Of a DNA stretch of 64,000 nt, positions 3,367-57,138 are shown in pieces (the first letter of the stretch is position 1; every line of letters starts with the position of its first letter). The translations under genes were made by a program, and so were the position numbers. The stretch is from a virus: positions 1 to 64,000 of the IMG/VR virus record IMGVR_UViG_3300027969_000055; one strand, 5' to 3'. The notes beneath the pieces are model-generated. The model saw only the letters and a program-made list of their open reading frames with translations, did not search any database and was not told where the DNA came from.

Positions 3367-3762
3367 ATGTCTATACTTAACTGGGAACTATATCACCAAA
3401 CTAAAGAGGTTAGTAAGATTCATACTGATTTAATATTTGAAGCAAAGAAACCTGAGACCTTTGAAAAATTTGCAGGTAATAGACTAGCAGGAGCAATTAA
3501 GATTGCTGAAACTACCAAAGCAAAAGGTGGAGATTCTTTATTAACCTATCAGCACTATAAAGTTAAGTTACCGTATTATAAAAAAGCGGCTGCTGGTAAA
3601 TTTAATATTGAAGAGGCCAAATCTGAACTAAAAAAATTGCACACCTACCTTCATGCAATCATTGATAAATTTGAAGCAAAGGACCAAACCCCATTTCAAC
3701 AAGTAATGGGAAAGATTGAAGTAGTTGGTGAATTAATTATTAAGTACAATGAAACACATTAA
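3367..3762 (+). CDS. Putative packaged internal head protein
   Basis: A 131-residue protein of unknown fold, lysine-rich and mostly helical in appearance. Its first 26 residues (L-N-W-x-x-Y-H, then D-L-I-F-E-A) closely parallel the start of the metallopeptidase at 10009. In both, I-[F/L]-E is followed by Ala, matching the ([L/I]-x-E) cleavage rule of T4 prohead protease gp21. It follows a late promoter and overlaps the lysozyme gene by 14 bases. Packaging into the head is inferred. Confidence 0.65.
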   Translation: MSILNWELYHQTKEVSKIHTDLIFEAKKPETFEKFAGNRLAGAIKIAETTKAKGGDSLLTYQHYKVKLPYYKKAAAGKFNIEEAKSELKKLHTYLHAIIDKFEAKDQTPFQQVMGKIEVVGELIIKYNETH

Positions 3763-4594
3763 TTTATTTGAAAGTTGGGTAAATGAATCAGTGACTGCTG
3801 ATCAAATAGCTATTCAAATACAACAAGCGGTTGCTAGATTAGGAACAGGCGAACAGGAATTAGTCGATGCAATCAAATTAATTCCGGATGCAGCTTCAAT
3901 GGTTCTTGTCAATAAACGGCTAAAGGCCGGATTTGATAATAATGGCTGGGACTATTCAAACGTTGGAGATGCAATCAACGGTGAACTTGGGTATTTTGAT
4001 CAAGCTTATATAAATCAAATTAATACTCATATTAAGAATATAAAAGCTGACAAATATTTGGGATCATTTGTTGCGCCGCCTATGCCGGTTGATCAAATAA
4101 TTAATTCGATTAAGGCTCGTGTAATTCAACACGAAGGCAAAAAACCGGTTAAATATTTAGATTCTAGAGGAATTCCTACGATTGGAGTTGGATTTAACCT
4201 AAATCGGTCAGATTCAAGCGAATTGCTTAAAAAAGTTGGAGCAAATCCAGATAAAGTTAAAGCTGGTAAATCTGCACTTACTGACGAACAGATAAATGCG
4301 CTGTTAGGTAATGATTTACTTAAAGCCAAACAGGATGCACAAACTCTAGCATCAGCCGATGGTTCAACTAATCTTGCAAATTCATGGAAAAAACTGCCAT
4401 TACCTGTGCAAGGAGTTTTAACTGAGATGGTATTTAATCTAGGAAAGACTGGCGTATCTAAATTTAACAATTTTCTAAAATATATTGCATCTAATAATTT
4501 TGTACAAGCATCAAAGGAGATGTTACAGTCAGAATGGGCAAGTCAAGTTGGAAATAGAGCAACCACATTAGCCCAAATAATAAAATCAGCATAA
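3749..4594 (+). CDS. T4-type lysozyme (GH24) with capsid-targeting-like N-terminus
   Basis: A 281-residue peptidoglycan hydrolase. The C-terminal half is a GH24 lysozyme with catalytic Glu129, Asp138 and Thr144, exactly the E11-D20-T26 spacing of T4 lysozyme. Residues 1-13 have the form M-K-H-I-N-L-F-E-S-W-V-N-E, like a T4 capsid-targeting sequence ending in a prohead-protease site. Residues 20-100 form a helical region with two weakly annexin-like repeats (L-G-T-G-E-Q-E-L, then G-D-A-I-N-G-E-L). There is no signal peptide. It could be an endolysin, a tail lysozyme or an enzyme carried in the head. The baseplate spike at 51581 has no lysozyme domain, so this may replace it. Confidence 0.85.
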   Translation: MKHINLFESWVNESVTADQIAIQIQQAVARLGTGEQELVDAIKLIPDAASMVLVNKRLKAGFDNNGWDYSNVGDAINGELGYFDQAYINQINTHIKNIKADKYLGSFVAPPMPVDQIINSIKARVIQHEGKKPVKYLDSRGIPTIGVGFNLNRSDSSELLKKVGANPDKVKAGKSALTDEQINALLGNDLLKAKQDAQTLASADGSTNLANSWKKLPLPVQGVLTEMVFNLGKTGVSKFNNFLKYIASNNFVQASKEMLQSEWASQVGNRATTLAQIIKSA

Positions 4595-5822: not shown

Positions 5823-6422
5823 ATGGCAGACATCGCACAACAATTTGCTGGATTACCTATTGAAGATCTTATTGTATCTCCAATCGTTGGTATGGCAAAA
5901 GGACAAGCAAAATTAAATGACGTAACCTGGAAATATATTTCAGAAGTTGCATTCGTAACTGACAAAGACGGTAAAACTCAAGCCCGCTCTTTAGATGTTG
6001 AAATGAACCGTGTAGTAACAGACGGTACTACTGGAGAACAAACAGTTCAAACTCTTTATTCAAAAGTTCCAATGTTACCATTGGTTCCATTGCCTTCATT
6101 GGCTATTACTTCAGCTGATATTGAATTTACAATGGAAGTTAAAACTTCTGAAGTAGACAAGTCAAGTGAAGATAAAGAGGGATCTTTTTCAGCTTCTGCG
6201 TCTGGCGGATTTTGGGGTATGAAATACTCGGTGAGCATGGCAGGTAAAGTTGCAACTCACAAAGAGAATACACGTAGCACTGATAACTCAGCAAAATACA
6301 ATGTAAAAGTACATGCTGAACAATTACCAGCAACTGAAGGTATGTTGAAATTATCTGATTACCTAACTCAAATGTTAGAGCCATCATTAATTCCACTTAC
6401 GGCTGATCCACAATCTAAGTAA
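5823..6422 (+). CDS. DUF2589-like protein
   Basis: A 199-residue protein resembling the bacterial DUF2589 family: an N-terminal helix (A-Q-Q-F-A-G-L-P-I-E-D-L-I-V-S-P), then alternating beta strands and a Ser/Ala/Gly-rich stretch near residues 120-140. The family has no established biochemical role. It is followed by a structurally similar gene at 6532 and a zinc-ribbon gene at 7017. A hairpin terminator lies 20 bases after its stop, so it is a single-gene unit with its own late promoter. High expression as a structural protein is plausible but not shown. Confidence 0.6.
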   Translation: MADIAQQFAGLPIEDLIVSPIVGMAKGQAKLNDVTWKYISEVAFVTDKDGKTQARSLDVEMNRVVTDGTTGEQTVQTLYSKVPMLPLVPLPSLAITSADIEFTMEVKTSEVDKSSEDKEGSFSASASGGFWGMKYSVSMAGKVATHKENTRSTDNSAKYNVKVHAEQLPATEGMLKLSDYLTQMLEPSLIPLTADPQSK

Positions 6423-6531: not shown

Positions 6532-7014
6532 ATGGCAAGATTAAATATTGAAGAGCTGGTTGGAGGTTTATTAGAAGCCGCAATGGTAGCTCAAGGAATA
6601 AGCGAAAGGCAACATATTAATGCCCTTGCAAACTATTTTAATGAAGACGGTACGCCTAAGACTAAAGCCTTTAAAATAGGGGAACGCGAACTGACTGTGC
6701 CGTTGTATATTATGGCAGATCACTCTTCGATTGGCCTTGAAGAGTTAGATATTGAATTTGAAGCTAGGCTAATATTTGGAAATAGCGATAAAGACGTCTC
6801 CGATCTTAAGAGATCCTTACTTGGCCTATTTAGGAAAAAGGGATATGAGCATAATATTAATGGAATTGAAGTAGATTCTGGTAAAAATACTGATGGTTCA
6901 GGCATGTCAAAAATTCGGGTTAAATTCAAATCAGATACTAAGCCTGAAATGATTTCTAGATTAGTTGATGCCTATATTCAAAAACTTGATGATTCCTCAA
7001 ATCAAACCACATAA
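6532..7014 (+). CDS. DUF2589-related protein
   Basis: A 160-residue protein with the same general plan as the gene at 5823: an N-terminal amphipathic helix (I-E-E-L-V-G-G-L-L-E-A-A), beta-rich middle with I-E-F-E-A-R, then a Lys/Gly-rich turn and an I-R-V-K-F strand. Sequence similarity to its neighbour is weak but the alternation of charged strands is alike. It follows the TAGTATAATA motif and precedes the zinc-ribbon gene by 2 bases. Function unknown. Confidence 0.55.
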   Translation: MARLNIEELVGGLLEAAMVAQGISERQHINALANYFNEDGTPKTKAFKIGERELTVPLYIMADHSSIGLEELDIEFEARLIFGNSDKDVSDLKRSLLGLFRKKGYEHNINGIEVDSGKNTDGSGMSKIRVKFKSDTKPEMISRLVDAYIQKLDDSSNQTT

Positions 7015-7456: not shown

Positions 7457-8401
7457 TTGAATATTCTTAATTTTAATGACTTTTTACTGCTTGAGGCTAG
7501 CTTATCTCAGCATGCTGATAAAAGAGTAGAACAACGTATTAAAGACAGTTTAAAGGACGGAACGGTCATTGACTTTCCAGCGGCTGCAAGAAAGAAAATT
7601 TCATTAACTGGCAGATCACTAGCTGATGTTTCAAATGAAGTAACTCAGCTAATCAAAGACGAGTTTATGCGACGTCTTACCAATAGAATAGAGCGGTCAG
7701 ACTTTCCAATTGGAAGAAATATAGTGGTTGTGTTATTAGATCCACAATTAAAATACGGTCATGATACTTTTCCAATATCAGTATCAGTAACATCAGAAAA
7801 TGAAGTAATTGATAAGAACACCGGAAAAAAGTCAATAATTAGAAAGACTTATACTGGCGAAAGATTATGTGTCTATATTGCAGATAATGTAGTGACTACG
7901 ATTAAAGTATTACCTGCAGATTATACAGATATTGATATTGAAAAGGACTCTGACAAGCATTTTGTTACTAAGAAGCTGGAGGTTAAAACCAGTACTGTAT
8001 TGTCAGGCGGTTCTGACTATATTATTGAATTGGATAAAACTGGGGAAATTAAACCTCACACAGGTCAAATACATTCAGGCCACGGTATTGTTACTGAAAA
8101 GGAATTTGCATTAACTCCAGGCAGACGTATTAAAGTAATTGTGCCATTTATTGATAAGGTTAATTTAACTAACGCTGAAATAATTTCAGTAGTTAATAGA
8201 GAATCTGCTAGAACTGATAGATTTATTAAAGTTGATGTTGTTTTAGAAGACGGCAGAAAAGTTCCTAAAACGTTAAGACCTGGAGATCAAATTGCACTAC
8301 CTGTTGGCCCAGATGGTGAATGGCAAAACTGTCAAGTGGCAGATAGTCTTTTTGTAGATTACGCAAATCGCGGAGGATCATTTTCACTTAAATATAAATA
8401 A
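7457..8401 (+). CDS. Putative packaged protein
   Basis: A 314-residue protein with a TTG start at 7457. This start gives M-N-I-L-N-F-N-D-F-L-L-L-E-A, a capsid-targeting-like peptide with L-L-E followed by Ala. Immediately after comes S-Q-H-A-D-K-R-V-E-Q-R-I, which resembles the start of DUF4258/BrnT-like small domains (weak). The C-terminal third is beta-rich (T-P-G-R-R-I-K-V-I-V-P-F). It ends Tyr-Lys-stop, overlapped by a late promoter. Function unknown. Confidence 0.65.
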   Translation: MNILNFNDFLLLEASLSQHADKRVEQRIKDSLKDGTVIDFPAAARKKISLTGRSLADVSNEVTQLIKDEFMRRLTNRIERSDFPIGRNIVVVLLDPQLKYGHDTFPISVSVTSENEVIDKNTGKKSIIRKTYTGERLCVYIADNVVTTIKVLPADYTDIDIEKDSDKHFVTKKLEVKTSTVLSGGSDYIIELDKTGEIKPHTGQIHSGHGIVTEKEFALTPGRRIKVIVPFIDKVNLTNAEIISVVNRESARTDRFIKVDVVLEDGRKVPKTLRPGDQIALPVGPDGEWQNCQVADSLFVDYANRGGSFSLKYK

Positions 8402-8402
8402 C
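8393..8402 (+). promoter_or_regulatory. T4-type late promoter
   Basis: TATAAATAAC overlaps the preceding stop codon. Predicted start near 8406, ahead of the MoxR gene. Confidence 0.65.
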
Positions 8403-8415
8403 GGGCCGCTGCCCA

Positions 8416-8425
8416 AATAAATAAC
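8416..8425 (+). promoter_or_regulatory. Second, tandem late promoter
   Basis: AATAAATAAC lies 23 bases after the first copy. Predicted start near 8429, 16 bases before the MoxR ATG, the usual leader length here. Confidence 0.55.
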
Positions 8426-8444
8426 TAAAAAATATACGCAAGTA

Positions 8445-10007
8445 ATGAGTAGAATTATTAAATCATATCCAGAGTTTTTGGCTGAAAACTTGAACCAAAA
8501 CGAAGGTCTTAGGGATATTGCAAAAAAAGCAGTTGGCTCAATTAAAAAATTCTTTGGAAATGGTGCAAACTATTTAAGTGCATTGGCTGCCCAAATTAGT
8601 GGAAAGCAGTCAAATGATGGTGCGGATGGTACAATTCCATATGGTGTAACAATATATCCAGCAGCCTCTGATTTACAAAAAGTTGGAGCAGATACTAGCT
8701 ATTCCCCAGAAGAAATTGATGAAAATTTAGTAGATGAAGAAGCGGTTCCGTTGGAAGCTGGCGAAAGCATTGGCGGAGTTAGAAATGTTGACTATGACGG
8801 TTTAATGAGAATTGTTAAACGAATTGCAAACAATCCAGATAAAGGAGAAGAAGCACCACTCATGATTTGGGGAGCTCCAGGTATTGGTAAAACTGCAATT
8901 GTTAAACAGGTTCAAAAAATGCTAGGAGGTAGAATGATTGATGTTCAATTAACTACTTATGCACCAGAAGATTTCTTTTTACCAGTAGTTGATCCAGCAA
9001 CTAATGATAATATAATGAGCCGTAGAGCTTCAAGGGTTCCACAAAAATGGTTACCTGTATATAACGAAAGCGAAGGTGAAGAAGGAAATGCAAAAGCAAA
9101 TGGTCCAGATGGAATGGGCGGAATGATATTTATGGATGAGTTATCTAGAGCGTCTGAAGCAATTAGAAATATTGCCCTAAAATTTGTATTAGACAGAGAA
9201 TTAGATGGAGGTTGGAAATTAGGAAGCAAATGGACAATATTTGCAGCATCTAACCGTCAAGAAGATGATTTAACAAATTCTCAAGATTTTGGTACTGCCT
9301 TAGGTAACCGTTTTCAACAAGTAAACTATGTTCCTGATACTAAAACTTATGGAAAATATGCATCAGCCCAAACTGACTCAAGCGGAGTTAATACATTTGA
9401 TCCACTTATTATATCGTTCTTACAATGGTCTAAAGGTAAAGAATTTTTTCATAAAATGGATTCAAGAGCAGTTGCATTTCCTAGTCCAAGATCTTGGGAA
9501 AAGGCTGCAATTGCTTGGAAAAATTTAAAGAAAGAAGCAGAGGCCGAAGGTTATCAATTAACTGATAAAATGATTGAAGATGAAGCTCTAGCACCAAATG
9601 TTGGAACTGAGGCAGCTACTGCATTTATTGCATACTATCTGTTATCTAAGAAAATTGACCTAAAGAATCTTTATAAAGTTTATACTGAGCCAGATAATGC
9701 ACCACTTCCATCAAAAACAAGAAATGATGATTATGAATTGGACGTTGCATATATTCTAGCTTCAGCAGTTGCATATGAGCACAGAGGTAAAAAATTAACC
9801 AATACTGAAATTGAAAATGTAGCTAAATACGCAATTCGAATTAATAATCCAACGGTTGCAATGCAGATAATGGGTGCACTAATTGAAATTCACCCATACT
9901 TAAAGACTGCTGGTACTCCAGAATTTGAAGTGTATCGTATTGCAATGAGACCGTTTTTAGCAGCATATCCAGGTTCAGCAAAGGATATTCAAAATTTAGA
10001 AAACTAA
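8445..10007 (+). CDS. MoxR-family AAA+ ATPase with capsid-targeting-like N-terminus
   Basis: A 520-residue ATPase. Residues 1-14 (S-Y-P-E-F-L-A-E at 7-14) look like a capsid-targeting peptide with an L-A-E site. Residues 15-115 look disordered and acidic. The AAA module has Walker A G-A-P-G-I-G-K-T (143-150), Walker B M-I-F-M-D-E (227-232) and a sensor-1-like A-A-S-N. MoxR ATPases work with von Willebrand A (VWA) partner proteins as chaperone or metal-insertion systems. Here the next two genes encode a metallopeptidase-like protein and a VWA protein, 1 and 4 bases apart. Late expression and the leader peptide suggest it is carried in the virion (inference). Confidence 0.8.
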   Translation: MSRIIKSYPEFLAENLNQNEGLRDIAKKAVGSIKKFFGNGANYLSALAAQISGKQSNDGADGTIPYGVTIYPAASDLQKVGADTSYSPEEIDENLVDEEAVPLEAGESIGGVRNVDYDGLMRIVKRIANNPDKGEEAPLMIWGAPGIGKTAIVKQVQKMLGGRMIDVQLTTYAPEDFFLPVVDPATNDNIMSRRASRVPQKWLPVYNESEGEEGNAKANGPDGMGGMIFMDELSRASEAIRNIALKFVLDRELDGGWKLGSKWTIFAASNRQEDDLTNSQDFGTALGNRFQQVNYVPDTKTYGKYASAQTDSSGVNTFDPLIISFLQWSKGKEFFHKMDSRAVAFPSPRSWEKAAIAWKNLKKEAEAEGYQLTDKMIEDEALAPNVGTEAATAFIAYYLLSKKIDLKNLYKVYTEPDNAPLPSKTRNDDYELDVAYILASAVAYEHRGKKLTNTEIENVAKYAIRINNPTVAMQIMGALIEIHPYLKTAGTPEFEVYRIAMRPFLAAYPGSAKDIQNLEN

Positions 10008-10008
10008 A

Positions 10009-10773
10009 ATGAAGCAATTATTGGATTGGAATGAATATCATAAGTATGCAGATTTTACAAAGTCTGACTTGATACTTGAGGCAGAGGAATCTGATCCAGT
10101 ATTAAAGAAGGTAAAAATAAAAGTAGACTATGCAATTAGAAAAGTTGCAATTAATTATAAATTCTTTGCCGATCTTACTTATAAATTAAGAATTATCTAT
10201 ACTAGACAGGTTAAAACAGCTGCAGTTGATGGAACAAATATGTTTATTAATCCAGAATTTTTTGAACCCTTAACCGAAGATCAAATTGTATTTATTGTAT
10301 GCCATGAAGTTATGCACTGTGCACTATTTCATTTTGCACGTATTCAAGGTAGAGACGGATATCGTTGGAATATTGCTGGTGACTATGAAATAAACTGGTT
10401 ACTGTCGAAAGATGGAATTCTATCGTATGACGAGATTAAGAATACTTTACGAGGTATGATTGAAAAATCCTATGCTGGTAAAAATGCTGAGCAGTTATAC
10501 GAAGATCCAGAAATGATAATGCCTCCAAAGGAAGAAGATGCAGAACAGGACACTACGCCTGGTGGTCCAGAAGACGGTGATCCTCCTCCGGGCGGTGGAG
10601 GCGGTGGAGGTAAAAAACCCAAAGAGGGCTTATTTCCTGGCAATATTATATACGACAAATCTAGCGGATCTTATGGTAAAGTTAATTCAATTGATAAAAC
10701 CACTGGTGAAGTTGATTTTTCACCATTAAGTAAACAAGAAGCTGAAATTGAATTGAAAAAACTTAAAGCTTAA
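10009..10773 (+). CDS. DUF2201-type metallopeptidase-like domain protein, putative packaged
   Basis: A 254-residue protein. Residues 99-103 are H-E-V-M-H, a zinc-metallopeptidase HExxH motif, followed by W-N-I-A-G-D-Y-E-I-N, which supplies the Asp typical of the DUF2201 N-terminal domain. Residues 1-25 (L-D-W-N-E-Y-H, ending I-L-E-A) match the packaging-type leader of the gene at 3367. A Pro/Gly-rich linker near residues 185-205 precedes a small beta domain. In bacteria DUF2201 joins this domain to a VWA domain in one chain and sits beside a MoxR gene. Here the VWA part is a separate gene. Substrate unknown. Confidence 0.7.
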   Translation: MKQLLDWNEYHKYADFTKSDLILEAEESDPVLKKVKIKVDYAIRKVAINYKFFADLTYKLRIIYTRQVKTAAVDGTNMFINPEFFEPLTEDQIVFIVCHEVMHCALFHFARIQGRDGYRWNIAGDYEINWLLSKDGILSYDEIKNTLRGMIEKSYAGKNAEQLYEDPEMIMPPKEEDAEQDTTPGGPEDGDPPPGGGGGGGKKPKEGLFPGNIIYDKSSGSYGKVNSIDKTTGEVDFSPLSKQEAEIELKKLKA

Positions 10774-10777
10774 TAAT

Positions 10778-11917
10778 ATGAAAACAAACTTATCTAATAT
10801 AGTTAAATTAGTAAATCCTAATGGTGCAAAAGGCGGAGGCAAAGGAGAAAGTGGAGAAGAGTCAACTGATAAGGGTATTGAAACTAAGACCTTAGAGAAA
10901 CCTGAAGAATTAGGCGGAGGTACTGGAGGAGAAGAAGAGGAAGAAGGAGAAGAGGGCCAAAAAGGAGAAGGTTCTGGAAAAGGTAAAGGTAAACCAGGAA
11001 AAGAAAAAGGAATGGGCTCAGGCGAAGGCTCATCTGAAGGAGATGGACCGATGGTAGACACAGATGATATTAATAATATTGACTCAAATAAGACGACTGT
11101 TGTTCGAAATGATGTACGGACAGGAAAGAGTCAAGGTAAAGTAGTTGGAAGAGGAACTGGCGAAGTTATTTCACCAGCTGAAGGTAGCCGTATTGCTAAA
11201 TCAGAAGGATATGATGAGCGCAGTCCACGCACGGAAGAGGAATGGAAGAAGGATGCAAGAACCTCTGCTCAAACAAATCTTACTAAACGAACCAAAAAAA
11301 GCGGTAGCGGAGAAGGAGCAATATATCAAAGAATTATGGAGCTTACTGATCCAATTGTAGATTGGAGAGCTGAATTACGCCGATTTATAGGTAAGCTTGC
11401 AAGTTCATCAGATTTTAAATTTCCAGCAAGAAGATCAATTGGGTCAGGCGATTACCGATATGGTATTAAATCCAAAAATAATGCTCTGGAAAATGGAGTA
11501 GTTGCAATTGACGTAAGCGGATCAATTGCCTCAGCTTTCCCAGAACTATTAGCTGAAGTAGTTGGAATTGCAAGCGCAAAGAAAATAAAGGAAATATCAG
11601 TTTTACCATGGAATGATAGAGTAGTTACTCCTGTAATATTTAAGAATTTTAAAAAACCAACGCCAGTTGATTTTGAAAAGGTTTCAACGGGTGGAGGGTC
11701 AAACGGAATGCCAGATGTTATGCGCTGGATTCAGAATAATGTAAAAGATCGCCCAGAATTTGTAGTTATCATAACTGATGGATATATTCCAACTCTACCG
11801 ACTGCTCCTAAATGGGGTAGGAAAACTATTTGGCTAATATTTGATAATAGCTCATTTGATGTACCGGCAGGTTGGGGTCAAGTTATTCACGCAAAAGGCG
11901 ATGACCGCTATAAATAA
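10778..11917 (+). CDS. VWA-domain protein, partner of MoxR ATPase
   Basis: A 379-residue protein. The first ~110 residues are Gly/Glu/Lys-rich low complexity. The C-terminal VWA-like domain has a complete MIDAS: D-V-S-G-S at 245-249, T-G-G-G-S at 304-308 and T-D-G at 333-335. It corresponds to the C-terminal domain of DUF2201 proteins. VWA partners of MoxR bind clients through a metal ion. It has no capsid-targeting-like leader, unlike its two upstream partners. It ends Tyr-Lys-stop with an overlapping late-promoter motif. Confidence 0.75.
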   Translation: MKTNLSNIVKLVNPNGAKGGGKGESGEESTDKGIETKTLEKPEELGGGTGGEEEEEGEEGQKGEGSGKGKGKPGKEKGMGSGEGSSEGDGPMVDTDDINNIDSNKTTVVRNDVRTGKSQGKVVGRGTGEVISPAEGSRIAKSEGYDERSPRTEEEWKKDARTSAQTNLTKRTKKSGSGEGAIYQRIMELTDPIVDWRAELRRFIGKLASSSDFKFPARRSIGSGDYRYGIKSKNNALENGVVAIDVSGSIASAFPELLAEVVGIASAKKIKEISVLPWNDRVVTPVIFKNFKKPTPVDFEKVSTGGGSNGMPDVMRWIQNNVKDRPEFVVIITDGYIPTLPTAPKWGRKTIWLIFDNSSFDVPAGWGQVIHAKGDDRYK

Positions 11918-53409: not shown

Positions 53410-55398
53410 TTGACTACTACTAATATTAAAAGTTTAAACCAGCCTGCTGTCCCAGAAAATTCAGTGTTTATCATTGAACATCTAAATGAAGCGGTTACGG
53501 TAACTAGAGAAAACAATGATGTTATTCTTGAAGGTACTGCGGCAGTTTTTGGAGTAATGAACGAAAACAATCGTATTTACGAAAAACAGGAATACTTACC
53601 TCATTTAACTTACTTAAATGAGAAGATCAAACAGCGTAGACTATTTGGTGAACTTGATCATCCACAAAAATTTGACGTTTCATTAGCTAATGTATCTCAC
53701 GTAATTGAGGGACTTACTTATGATGAACCAACTAATAGTGTAAAAATTAGACTTCGTCTATTAGATACACCATGCGGTAGAATTGCAAAAACCTTGGTTG
53801 AAGCAGGTTGTACTACTTCAATTTCTTCAAGAGCTGCAGGTAATGTTGCTGAGAATGGAAAGGTTAAATTAGCAAAAATATTCACATACGATTTGGTTGC
53901 AGAACCAGGTTTTGCACAAGCAGCGCTTGGCCAAGTATCTGAAAGTTTGCAAAATAATTATTCAGCAATCTTTGAATCACTAGATTCATTAAGAACTACG
54001 GCAATCACTACCAAGTTAACAGATATTTCTGAAAACTTTGGTTTCGAGGATTCTGTGAAGATTTACAGAATAAATAATCAAGAAATACCAACTAAACAAA
54101 ATAACACACAGCAAATGGCTAATGAGTTTGTAACAAAAGAAGAGATGAATCAGTATTCTGAACTGGTTAAAAAGAAATTTTCTTCACTACAAGAGAACAT
54201 CTCTAAAAACAACAAAGGTCTTCAAAAGATCAGCGAAAACGCAACCGAAGGAGAATCTCCAGTTGTTGCTAAAATGGTAGAATACGTTAACTATTTAGCT
54301 GGTGAAATGGAGCAATTGGTTGAATATTCTAACTATCTTTCAACAATGTTGAATCAAGGTATTAATTACACTGAGCATGTTGCAGAGAAAGTTAATACAG
54401 TAATCGACTATTCTGACTACTTAGCAGAAAAAGTAGAAAAGAATATTCAATACTCTGACTATCTAGGAGAGAAAGTTAATCAAAACATTAACTATTCTGA
54501 ATATATTGCAGAAAACGTAGAAAAAACAGTTGAATACGCTAACTACATTGCAGAAAACGTAGATAAAGGAATTCAATACACTGAATACGTTGCAGAAAGT
54601 GCAGAAAAAGGAATTAAGTATTCTAACTATTTAGCTGAAAACTTAGATGCAGCTATTAAATACTCAAACTATCTTGGAGAAAATCTTCAACAAGGTATTA
54701 AATACTCAGAATACATTGCTGAGACTCTAAATGAGAAAATTACACCATCTGCTTTAACTAAAACTCGTTCTTTACTTGGAGAAGTTAAAAAATTAAACGA
54801 AGGTGTAGAATTTGAAGTTAATGAAACTTCTTCAGTTGACGATTTAGTTGGAGCAGTTGATGGAATCTTAACTCACATTAAGTCAAATTCAGCTAAAGCT
54901 GTTTTGGAAAACAAATATCCATTCTTAAAATTGTTAAACGAAGGTCGTAAACAAGCATTCTATAATTTAGATCAAACTACTAAATCGGCAATCGTTGAAA
55001 CAATGCAAGGAGCGATCTACTTTAACGAAGGTGAAGTAGTTAATATTATGGAAGCTGTTCTTAACAAACAAGTTGAAAACACTCCTAACTATATTAAACT
55101 TATGCCAGCTGCATACAAGCAATTATTTGAAAGTATGACTGAAGGAGAAAGAAATTGGATGGCTTCTCAAGCTAACAACTTCACTCTAAATACTTCGTAT
55201 CAAGTTAAGTCTTTCTGGGATTCTCGCGATTTCAGAGGAATTAATGAAAGAATTGCAACTGAGACAATTATAAATAATAATTCTATTAACGAAAACCAAG
55301 GTAAAGAAGGTTACGTATCGTTAAACCAAATAAACGAAAGTCTACGTGGTTATTCTAATAACTACATGGACGCTCTTAAAAGAAGAGCACAAAATTAA
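53410..55398 (+). CDS. gp21-gp22: Prohead protease (gp21) fused to scaffold (gp22-like)
   Basis: A 662-residue protein with a TTG start at 53410. Residues 18-28 (V-F-I-I-E-H-L-N-E-A) resemble a self-cleaved leader. The protease domain (about 30-200) has G-E-L-D-H-P with His84 and I-S-S-R-A with Ser140, fitting the His-Ser pair of T4 gp21. From residue 236 begins a scaffold-like helical part. Residues 290-443 are eleven 14-residue repeats, nearly all with an [L/I/V]-[A/G]-E site. T4 keeps protease and scaffold as adjacent genes 21 and 22. The capsid gene follows 18 bases later. Confidence 0.85.
   Translation: MTTTNIKSLNQPAVPENSVFIIEHLNEAVTVTRENNDVILEGTAAVFGVMNENNRIYEKQEYLPHLTYLNEKIKQRRLFGELDHPQKFDVSLANVSHVIEGLTYDEPTNSVKIRLRLLDTPCGRIAKTLVEAGCTTSISSRAAGNVAENGKVKLAKIFTYDLVAEPGFAQAALGQVSESLQNNYSAIFESLDSLRTTAITTKLTDISENFGFEDSVKIYRINNQEIPTKQNNTQQMANEFVTKEEMNQYSELVKKKFSSLQENISKNNKGLQKISENATEGESPVVAKMVEYVNYLAGEMEQLVEYSNYLSTMLNQGINYTEHVAEKVNTVIDYSDYLAEKVEKNIQYSDYLGEKVNQNINYSEYIAENVEKTVEYANYIAENVDKGIQYTEYVAESAEKGIKYSNYLAENLDAAIKYSNYLGENLQQGIKYSEYIAETLNEKITPSALTKTRSLLGEVKKLNEGVEFEVNETSSVDDLVGAVDGILTHIKSNSAKAVLENKYPFLKLLNEGRKQAFYNLDQTTKSAIVETMQGAIYFNEGEVVNIMEAVLNKQVENTPNYIKLMPAAYKQLFESMTEGERNWMASQANNFTLNTSYQVKSFWDSRDFRGINERIATETIINNNSINENQGKEGYVSLNQINESLRGYSNNYMDALKRRAQN
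54069..54078 (+). promoter_or_regulatory. Internal late-promoter-like motif
   Basis: AATAAATAAT inside the protease-scaffold gene. Predicted start near 54082, 33 bases before an in-frame ATG at 54115. Confidence 0.4.
54115..55398 (+). CDS. Possible nested scaffold protein (internal start)
   Basis: An in-frame ATG at residue 236 of the protease-scaffold fusion would give a 427-residue scaffold (M-A-N-E-F-V-T-K-E-E-M) without the protease. It lies just after the predicted end of the protease domain and after a late-promoter-like motif. A separate scaffold made this way is known for lambda C/Nu3. This is an inference. Confidence 0.4.
   Translation: MANEFVTKEEMNQYSELVKKKFSSLQENISKNNKGLQKISENATEGESPVVAKMVEYVNYLAGEMEQLVEYSNYLSTMLNQGINYTEHVAEKVNTVIDYSDYLAEKVEKNIQYSDYLGEKVNQNINYSEYIAENVEKTVEYANYIAENVDKGIQYTEYVAESAEKGIKYSNYLAENLDAAIKYSNYLGENLQQGIKYSEYIAETLNEKITPSALTKTRSLLGEVKKLNEGVEFEVNETSSVDDLVGAVDGILTHIKSNSAKAVLENKYPFLKLLNEGRKQAFYNLDQTTKSAIVETMQGAIYFNEGEVVNIMEAVLNKQVENTPNYIKLMPAAYKQLFESMTEGERNWMASQANNFTLNTSYQVKSFWDSRDFRGINERIATETIINNNSINENQGKEGYVSLNQINESLRGYSNNYMDALKRRAQN
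54277..54738 (+). repeat. Eleven 42-nt tandem repeats in the scaffold
   Basis: Eleven consecutive 14-residue units of consensus [I/V]-x-Y-S-x-Y-[L/I]-A-E-x-[V/L]-x-x-x. Nine of the eleven have a [L/I/V]-[A/G]-E tripeptide. The DNA units have diverged, so the array is not a recent duplication. Confidence 0.9.
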
Positions 55399-55416: not shown

Positions 55417-57138
55417 ATGGCAACAAAAATTTTCAAAAAATTGAACGACGCTTCAATTAAGGAAACTTGGACCCCAGTTTTAGAAGGTTATGGTGCAAAC
55501 GTTACAGCTCGCCCTTGGTTAGTTGACTACGCTCACAATCATGCTATCTTCGATAACGCAGGTTCAATCAATGAAGCAAACACTGGAGTAGCTCCAGGTT
55601 TATTCTTACAACAACCTGGTTCTATCAGTGCTATGGGTGCAATTAGTTCTCCAACGAGTTCTATGACTCCATTCACAGGTGGTGCTAAAAACGGTTACGG
55701 TGCTTCTGTATCTGGTTCTGGTGATAAATTCCCAAGCCTTTTACCAGTTGCAATCCAAGTAGCTGCTAAAACTATTGGTTTCGACCTAGTTGGTGTAGTT
55801 CCTATGGATTCTCCAGTAGGTTTCCTACCTTACTTGGATTATGTATACCAAGGTGGTAACATCGACAAACAATATGAGCCTTATTTAATTAAGATCACTG
55901 GTTTGTTAGAAAATGCTGCAGGTTCTACAGTAAACGGTATTGCAAATGGTGATAAATTCCCAGTATCTAAATTGCCTTTTACTGAAGGTCTTAACTACGG
56001 TATTAACGAAAGTAATACTGACTTAGTTTTACAATTCGTTGGTAAATCACGTGTTGATGGTTCTCCAATCTTCAAAGTTATCCTATCTCATGATGGTGGT
56101 ACTCTTGCTGATTACTTTGCAGCTGACGTTGATATTCAACCAGCAAATGCAACTGACGTTTCAGGTACTGCGGTAGTAACTTTCCGTACAGCTGATAACA
56201 AAGTTGAATTAGTTTCTGCTTTAGAAAACCATATTTCTGGTTTTACTTCAGTATCTGACGCTGATTACGCTACATCTGATTTCAACGGTCCTTATATGGG
56301 ATCTACTGGAACTCAAATGGAAGGTATGGCTCGTCAAACTGCTGAAACTTCTAAATTCCGTCAAATGGGTCTTCGTATGTTCACTAAGTTCATCGAAGCA
56401 AAAGGAGATCAAGTTTCTATTTCAGCAACTGTTGAACAAATCCAAGATCTTAACCGAGTTTGGAACTTTGACGTAATCTCTATGTTAGAGAATGTAGCAG
56501 TTAACGAATTAGCTCAATCAATCAACAAAAAGTTAGTTGACCGTGTTCTTAATTTAGGATCAGTTCACGCTACTGCTGTTGAAGGTGTTGAAGGTGCAGG
56601 TATCACTACTTTGGACCTAACTGTTGGAACAACTGGATTTGAGAATATCTCAACTCTACAACGTCGTGTTGTAACTAAAATTCTTGAAATGGCTAACTTG
56701 ATTTATCATAGAGGTCGTTTCGGTGCAGGTACATACATCGTTACTAACGGTCGTGTTGCTTCTGCTTTAGCAGATGTAGCTGGTTACTCTTTCGCTCCAT
56801 TCAATAATGATCTTCCATCTACTGCTGGTCAATTGTATCCTGCAGGTAAAGTACATGGTTTAACCATCTACGTTGATCCTAACTTGAAATTCAGCGATAA
56901 CCGTATCCATATCGGTCGTAAAGGTGCTGATGAAGAGCCAGGTGTTAAATTCCTTCCATATATCATGGCAGAGAGTCTTCAAACAATTGCAGAGGGAACT
57001 TTCTCTCCGAAAATTGGTATGAAATCTCGTTATGCTATTACCGAAGCTGGATGGCACCCAGAAACTCAATACATTACGTTGGCTGTAACAGGTCTAGGAG
57101 TATTGACTGGTTCAACTCGCCCTGCTTCTTCTTACTAA
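55417..57138 (+). CDS. gp23: Major capsid protein gp23-like
   Basis: A 573-residue protein with clear similarity to T4 gp23 (521): V-V-P-M-D-S-P-V-G near 121, T-S-K-F-R-Q-M-G-L-R-M near 310 and, in the C-terminal half, S-R-Y-A-I-T-E-A-G-W. Cleavage after I-N-E at residue 53 (followed by Ala) would parallel the T4 gp23 cut after L-T-E at residue 65. No separate late promoter is visible in the 18-base gap, so it is read with the protease-scaffold gene. The start has only A/T-rich sequence before it. A terminator follows. Confidence 0.93.
   Translation: MATKIFKKLNDASIKETWTPVLEGYGANVTARPWLVDYAHNHAIFDNAGSINEANTGVAPGLFLQQPGSISAMGAISSPTSSMTPFTGGAKNGYGASVSGSGDKFPSLLPVAIQVAAKTIGFDLVGVVPMDSPVGFLPYLDYVYQGGNIDKQYEPYLIKITGLLENAAGSTVNGIANGDKFPVSKLPFTEGLNYGINESNTDLVLQFVGKSRVDGSPIFKVILSHDGGTLADYFAADVDIQPANATDVSGTAVVTFRTADNKVELVSALENHISGFTSVSDADYATSDFNGPYMGSTGTQMEGMARQTAETSKFRQMGLRMFTKFIEAKGDQVSISATVEQIQDLNRVWNFDVISMLENVAVNELAQSINKKLVDRVLNLGSVHATAVEGVEGAGITTLDLTVGTTGFENISTLQRRVVTKILEMANLIYHRGRFGAGTYIVTNGRVASALADVAGYSFAPFNNDLPSTAGQLYPAGKVHGLTIYVDPNLKFSDNRIHIGRKGADEEPGVKFLPYIMAESLQTIAEGTFSPKIGMKSRYAITEAGWHPETQYITLAVTGLGVLTGSTRPASSY

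Follow-up and report, generated by a model that had tools for sequence, protein, structure and literature searches.

We found that two enzymes encoded by a large virus with a T4-type head, a MoxR AAA+ ATPase and a DUF2201 metallopeptidase, carry N-terminal leaders resembling T4 capsid targeting sequences, and that the MoxR leader imitates the tandem repeat of the phage's own scaffold. Judged from the sequence, both enzymes are probably packaged into the phage head. That they are ejected and act in the new host, after the T4 precedent, is a tentative proposal. The analysed window covers the first 64 kb of a virus record that is 116,370 bases long, and the genes for MoxR, the peptidase and a separate VWA protein follow one another on its + strand, with these features:

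8393-8402, + strand: late promoter TATAAATAAC of the T4 type; overlaps the stop codon of the gene before it (motif scan)
8417-8425, + strand: second late promoter ATAAATAAC, 28 bp 5′ of the MoxR start codon (motif scan)
8445-10007, + strand: MoxR AAA+ ATPase, 520 aa (AAA_5, phrog_1297, AlphaFold model)
8445-8504, + strand: capsid-targeting-like leader of MoxR, residues 1-20, MSRIIKSYPEFLAENLNQNE (scaffold-repeat profile, alignment)
8505-8558, + strand: cationic amphipathic helix of MoxR, residues 21-38, GLRDIAKKAVGSIKKFFG (muH 0.59)
10009-10773, + strand: DUF2201_N metallopeptidase, 254 aa, HEVMH at residues 99-103 (PF13203, 88 bits)
10009-10080, + strand: leader of the peptidase, residues 1-24, MKQLLDWNEYHKYADFTKSDLILE↓A, the arrow marking the candidate cleavage (aromatic-xx-aromatic plus (I/L)xE pattern)
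10778-11917, + strand: separate VWA protein, 379 aa, MIDAS DVSGS at residues 245-249 (PF09967, 41.6 bits; PF13203, 24.2 bits)

The HMM searches proposed in an earlier note on this DNA recovered both the MoxR and the DUF2201 families. MoxR matched Pfam AAA_5 at 30 bits and phrog_1297 at 175 bits, while the bpMoxR model scored it at 26, just under the cut-off of 27. Its Walker A motif GAPGIGKT occupies residues 143-150, and GxPGIGK and DE are invariant. The AlphaFold model (mean pLDDT 75.8, with residues 1-40 as low-confidence helices outside the core) gave TM-scores of 0.55-0.63 to NorQ, and NorQ and CbbQ2, which are MoxR proteins with VWA partners, scored highest among the listed targets. An AAA+ core, a MoxR-type fold and a VWA gene downstream therefore place the protein among the MoxR AAA+ ATPases, as the earlier note had read it. 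Against the PADLOC defence models, MoxR gave a weak DolB match of 22 bits over 72 residues only, and neither the peptidase nor the VWA protein matched.

The second protein, described beforehand as an HExxH protein of the DUF2201 type, matched DUF2201_N and is a predicted HExxH metallopeptidase in which HExxH, H108 and D125 are conserved. Across 28 relatives H103, H108, R111, N121, A123 and D125 are invariant, and H99 and E100 nearly so. The nearest structures to its model (pLDDT 78.0) were the minigluzincins selecase and jannalysin, with a Foldseek probability of 1.00 and a best E of only 3e-3; a sequence search with the peptidase also recovered the selecase family, but only at E 0.09.

The VWA gene starts 4 bases past the peptidase stop codon and in a different frame, which bears out the claim that VWA is a separate gene here. 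Its product matched DUF2201 at 41.6 bits and the second (C-terminal) half of DUF2201_N at 24.2 bits, so that both domains score above cut-off on two adjacent ORFs, and the break falls within DUF2201_N in a low-complexity stretch. Since the phrog_1314 profile spans both halves, they form one protein in most relatives; among 148 loci with both domains, 125 were fused and 23 split. This coverage and the recurrence of the split indicate that it is real. A frameshift artefact was rejected as its cause, as the 23 split loci come from many contigs and the VWA N-termini are conserved. The VWA protein has no leader, as had been claimed, and none was found in 17/17 split loci. The HNH endonuclease label of phrog_1314 was likewise rejected, because the proteins match the DUF2201 peptidase and VWA models; on this profile and on RefSeq phage records (e.g. 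N4 gp25) it is a propagated annotation error.

We then consider transcription. The motif ATAAATAAC occurs 18 times genome-wide, and an ORF starts within 60 bp downstream of 17/18 copies, against 0.6 expected. The earlier note had put late promoters before both enzyme genes; this held for MoxR (8393-8402 and 8417-8425) but not for the peptidase, as the motif scan found no late promoter of its own for the peptidase gene and none before the VWA gene. A peptidase-specific late promoter was therefore rejected, and the peptidase must be co-transcribed from the MoxR promoters. Because late motifs stand before MoxR only, we read the three genes as a single late operon. Directly 5′ of it, at 5823-6422 and 6532-7014, a pair of genes encodes proteins that match DUF2589 at 116 and 50 bits.

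The MoxR protein begins MSRIIKSYPEFLAENLNQNEG and the peptidase MKQLLDWNEYHKYADFTKSDLILEAEE. The internal protein IPIII of T4 carries the tag MKTYQEFIAEA, in which mutagenesis assigned residues 4 and 7 to targeting and residues 8 and 10 to processing, and T4 gp21 cleaves after L/I-x-E (PMC9026906). Y8, F11, L12 and E14 of MoxR are spaced as IPIII positions 4, 7, 8 and 10. In the peptidase the aromatic residues are W7 and Y10, I22-L-E24↓A follows later, and the leader is longer (24 residues). Both leaders thus hold the aromatic/hydrophobic determinants and the (L/I)xE of a T4-type capsid targeting sequence, and the packaging-type leaders noticed earlier are indeed present on both enzymes. Candidate cleavage positions in MoxR are after E14 (LAE↓N) or E20 (NE↓G); QNE↓G misfits the strict L/I-x-E of T4, and only LAE↓N fits. 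A genome-wide scan with a loose regex (aromatic-xx-aromatic plus an hxE start) flagged 24/112 genes, as compared with 6.0 ± 2.2 in shuffled sequences and a shuffle maximum of 13 in 500. With a stricter pattern, 15/18 leader genes lay in late operons against 42/94 of the others (p = 0.004).

Other flagged genes are of mixed quality. Some resemble false positives, for example 68389-69579 of the record. A lysozyme-like protein at 3749-4594 (PF00959, 31.7 bits), with the leader MKHINLFESWVNES and in a late operon, is another candidate head-packaged enzyme and weakly matches an internal virion lysozyme family. A protein of the 5′-3′ deoxyribonucleotidase family on the minus strand (G000 76017-76604, L005:12017-12604; phrog_2643, 81.7 bits) has the leader MNLKKMLKKFDQFIFEK.

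Right behind the NE site of MoxR, a cationic amphipathic helix recurs across the lineage, with a family mean muH of 0.52 against a background of 0.23 ± 0.12; it resembles membrane-active peptides. The MoxR model places a helix at residues 20-36 with low confidence. Cleavage after E20 would leave this helix as the mature N-terminus.

To follow the leaders through relatives, about 160 loci were brought in by IMG/VR searches, and MoxR proteins of 450 aa or more were classed as long. At long-MoxR loci strict leaders were present on 21/37 MoxR and 19/34 DUF2201 proteins, whereas the other loci gave 0/32 and 0/35 (p = 8e-8 and 4e-8, respectively). Most of the 16/37 long MoxR proteins that fail the leader regex keep the NE site, and h-N-E within the first 35 residues was found in 30/37 long MoxR proteins versus 0/32 others. 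In a 34-sequence alignment, E20 of this NE↓G/A/S/N site is conserved in 32/33 sequences with a residue there. In LR756500, whose MoxR is 33% identical, leaders stand on MoxR and on a fused peptidase-VWA protein. The homologues of S-TIM5 and PA5oct, when checked, showed no leader. The idea that leaders track with the gp21-type protease was rejected, as in Phosso and others the protease is present and MoxR and the peptidase have no leader.

The same genome encodes a T4-type head, with a gp21-type protease and a gp23-type capsid protein as well as a gp20-type portal homologue:

53410-55398, + strand: gp21-type prohead protease-scaffold fusion (PF03420, 39.9 bits; phrog_207, 122.6 bits)
54325-54744, + strand: ten tandem 14-residue scaffold repeats (YSxYhAE...), residues 306-445, e.g. 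YSEYIAENVEKTVE
55417-57138, + strand: gp23-type major capsid protein (PF07068, 142.6 bits)
55567-55578, + strand: putative capsid cleavage site INE↓A, residues 51-54 (motif match)

In the window and in several relatives the capsid protein carries (I/L)NE↓A/S/N in its N-terminal region (LNE↓A/S/N or LFE↓Q in the relatives), a candidate site to which the conserved NE site of MoxR is similar. By analogy with T4, (I/L)NE is the likely capsid cleavage site, although a global alignment with T4 gp23 does not put it exactly on the T4 site.

A profile of the scaffold repeats was built without the MoxR leader and scored on the rest of the proteome. The MoxR leader YPEFLAENLNQNEG ranked first of 34,894 14-mers, with 18.5 bits against 10.3 for the next, and only 1/1000 column-permuted profiles had its best match at this leader. 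Scored with the same profile, the T4 IPIII tag YQEFIAEA was among the best 0.01% of 8-mers. Scaffold repeats with 14-residue spacing were also observed in seven related phages. When the scaffold of each relative was compared with the proteins of its own MoxR locus, the MoxR leader again ranked first in G003 and G019 but not in W01, G015, G018, G021 or G040, and in W01 the best match was the N-terminus of another gene. Mimicry by MoxR is thus clear in 3/8 phages with repeat scaffolds. The peptidase leader was unlike the scaffold repeat in the profile comparison, and the mimicry shown is thus confined to MoxR. Equal copies of the repeat in the other leaders of the genome were rejected, as the top profile matches hold hardly more N-termini than expected and MoxR stands out. 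Two relatives, L182 and L183 (records G023 and G020), have a scaffold repeat of another type, KWIVEQYSPEVQ-like, and MoxR proteins without the YxxF leader, from which leader and scaffold may co-evolve.

Head targeting, as the earlier note had proposed, is well supported at the sequence level by the leader statistics, the scaffold mimicry, the conserved Glu, the gp21/gp23 proteins and the late promoters. From these features we infer packaging, cleavage, ejection and host activity as follows. MoxR and the peptidase would be late proteins built into the prohead, where their leaders would dock them to the scaffold core in the way that the capsid targeting sequence does for the internal proteins of T4; we propose this co-assembly because the MoxR leader imitates the scaffold repeat and the T4-tag pattern is present in both leaders. 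While maturing the capsid and scaffold, the gp21-type protease would cut the leaders after Glu and free the enzymes inside the head, and mature MoxR would begin with the cationic amphipathic helix. At infection both enzymes may be ejected with the DNA and form an early ATP-driven remodelling and peptidase pair in the new cell. The VWA protein may be carried along by binding to the peptidase, or may work in the producing cell only; as it consistently has no leader, it is uncertain whether the head would hold a full MoxR-peptidase-VWA complex. The whole proposal, namely that a T4-type lineage loads a remodelling machine and a metallopeptidase by copying its scaffold repeat and delivers them into the cell, where early in infection they rework proteins of the host or of the incoming phage, and that capsid tags generally are single scaffold-repeat units, is put forward as a possibility to which we give somewhat less than even chances.

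The leaders point to the core and not to ejection, and together with the late promoters this would also suit a helper of head assembly. MoxR and the peptidase would then be brought to the prohead core, remodel or trim structural proteins, and be consumed or trapped, with no role in the next host. A virion-assembly role was proposed by Iyer et al. 2021, who cite a MoxR-vWA system required for the tails of Acidianus two-tailed virus (PMC7824862). However, the leader-bearing proteins of T4 are retained in mature heads, from which many of them are ejected (PMC9026906), and leaderless phages keep the pair, which argues that assembly help needs no docking to the core. We consider this alternative doubtful.

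In N4-type phages the homologues have no leaders and belong to the core middle genes, which indicates that infected cells, too, are a place where the pair works. It may be that the present system likewise does its remodelling in the cytoplasm, the presumed site of action of N4 gp24/gp25, and that the N-terminal segment serves another use such as membrane binding by the amphipathic helix. The strongly amphipathic cationic helix directly behind the MoxR leader and the VWA partner without a leader agree with this, and RavA-ViaA of E. coli works at the inner membrane (PMC9489729). Yet it gives no reason for the leader pattern that MoxR shares with an unrelated peptidase, for the MoxR leader being a better copy of the scaffold repeat than anything else in the proteome, or for the leader genes being late, and we regard it as improbable.

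That the likeness of the leaders is coincidental, short amphipathic N-termini with an aromatic residue and Glu being common in AT-rich genomes, is unlikely and earns very little credence: the pattern is short, the regex loose and some flagged genes (68389-69579) resemble false positives, but the excess over shuffled sequences, the 0/67 in the leaderless groups and the first rank on a profile built without the MoxR leader all argue against it.

If packaging and ejection are true, phages deliver an energy-driven remodelling and cutting machine, beyond small inhibitors, before phage gene expression. Scaffold mimicry would be a testable molecular rule for capsid targeting sequences, and could predict packaged proteins from sequence in many uncultured large phages. 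The leader-bearing pair would also offer a direct test of the role of the widespread, unexplained N4 gp24/gp25 family.

Several known systems share parts of this arrangement. Like the proteins described here, RavA-ViaA and NorQ-NorD join a MoxR AAA+ protein with a separate VWA partner. They are chromosomal chaperones or metal-insertion machines, and to our knowledge they have neither a metallopeptidase half nor a leader. N4 gp24/gp25 (Schitoviridae core; phrog_1297 and phrog_1314) are a homologous ATPase and DUF2201 peptidase-VWA protein encoded by adjoining genes, conserved core genes on middle transcripts for which the literature gives the function only as 'unknown' (PMC4193335). N4-type MoxR proteins are about 340-400 aa long without leader or N-terminal extension, are middle genes and have a fused VWA, whereas here the homologous MoxR has 520 aa and a leader, and the peptidase and VWA are split. 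The MoxR and metallopeptidase-vWA proteins of group 2.2 jumbo phages described by Iyer et al. 2021 (PMC7824862) have the same components in T4-related large phages, with MoxR adjoining the peptidase-VWA gene; there the VWA is fused and the excerpted text describes no head-targeting leaders, whereas here VWA is separate and MoxR and the peptidase have leaders.

The earlier statement that no virion-carried MoxR had been described needs qualifying, as there are weak mass-spectrometry precedents, neither with a leader. In virions of Staphylococcus phage DC4 a MoxR homologue was identified by one peptide, about which the authors were doubtful and asked for confirmation (PMC10638138); it scores 96 bits on the MoxR profile and adjoins a DUF2201 protein. 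In PA5oct, the record of the homologue carries an ESI-MS/MS note, as for structural proteins there.

With the tags of T4 IPI, IPII, IPIII and Alt, the leaders share a short N-terminal aromatic-xx-aromatic plus hxE sequence and the company of a gp21-type protease and a gp23-type capsid; what differs is the cargo, which here consists of a metallopeptidase and an AAA+ ATPase of large size, and a MoxR leader that copies the tandem repeat within the protease-scaffold fusion. Altogether, the enzyme pair (N4 gp24/gp25 and the jumbo-phage MoxR with peptidase-VWA) and the T4 head tag are already known, while what appears to be new is the joining of head tag and enzyme pair, together with the split VWA and the mimicry of the scaffold.
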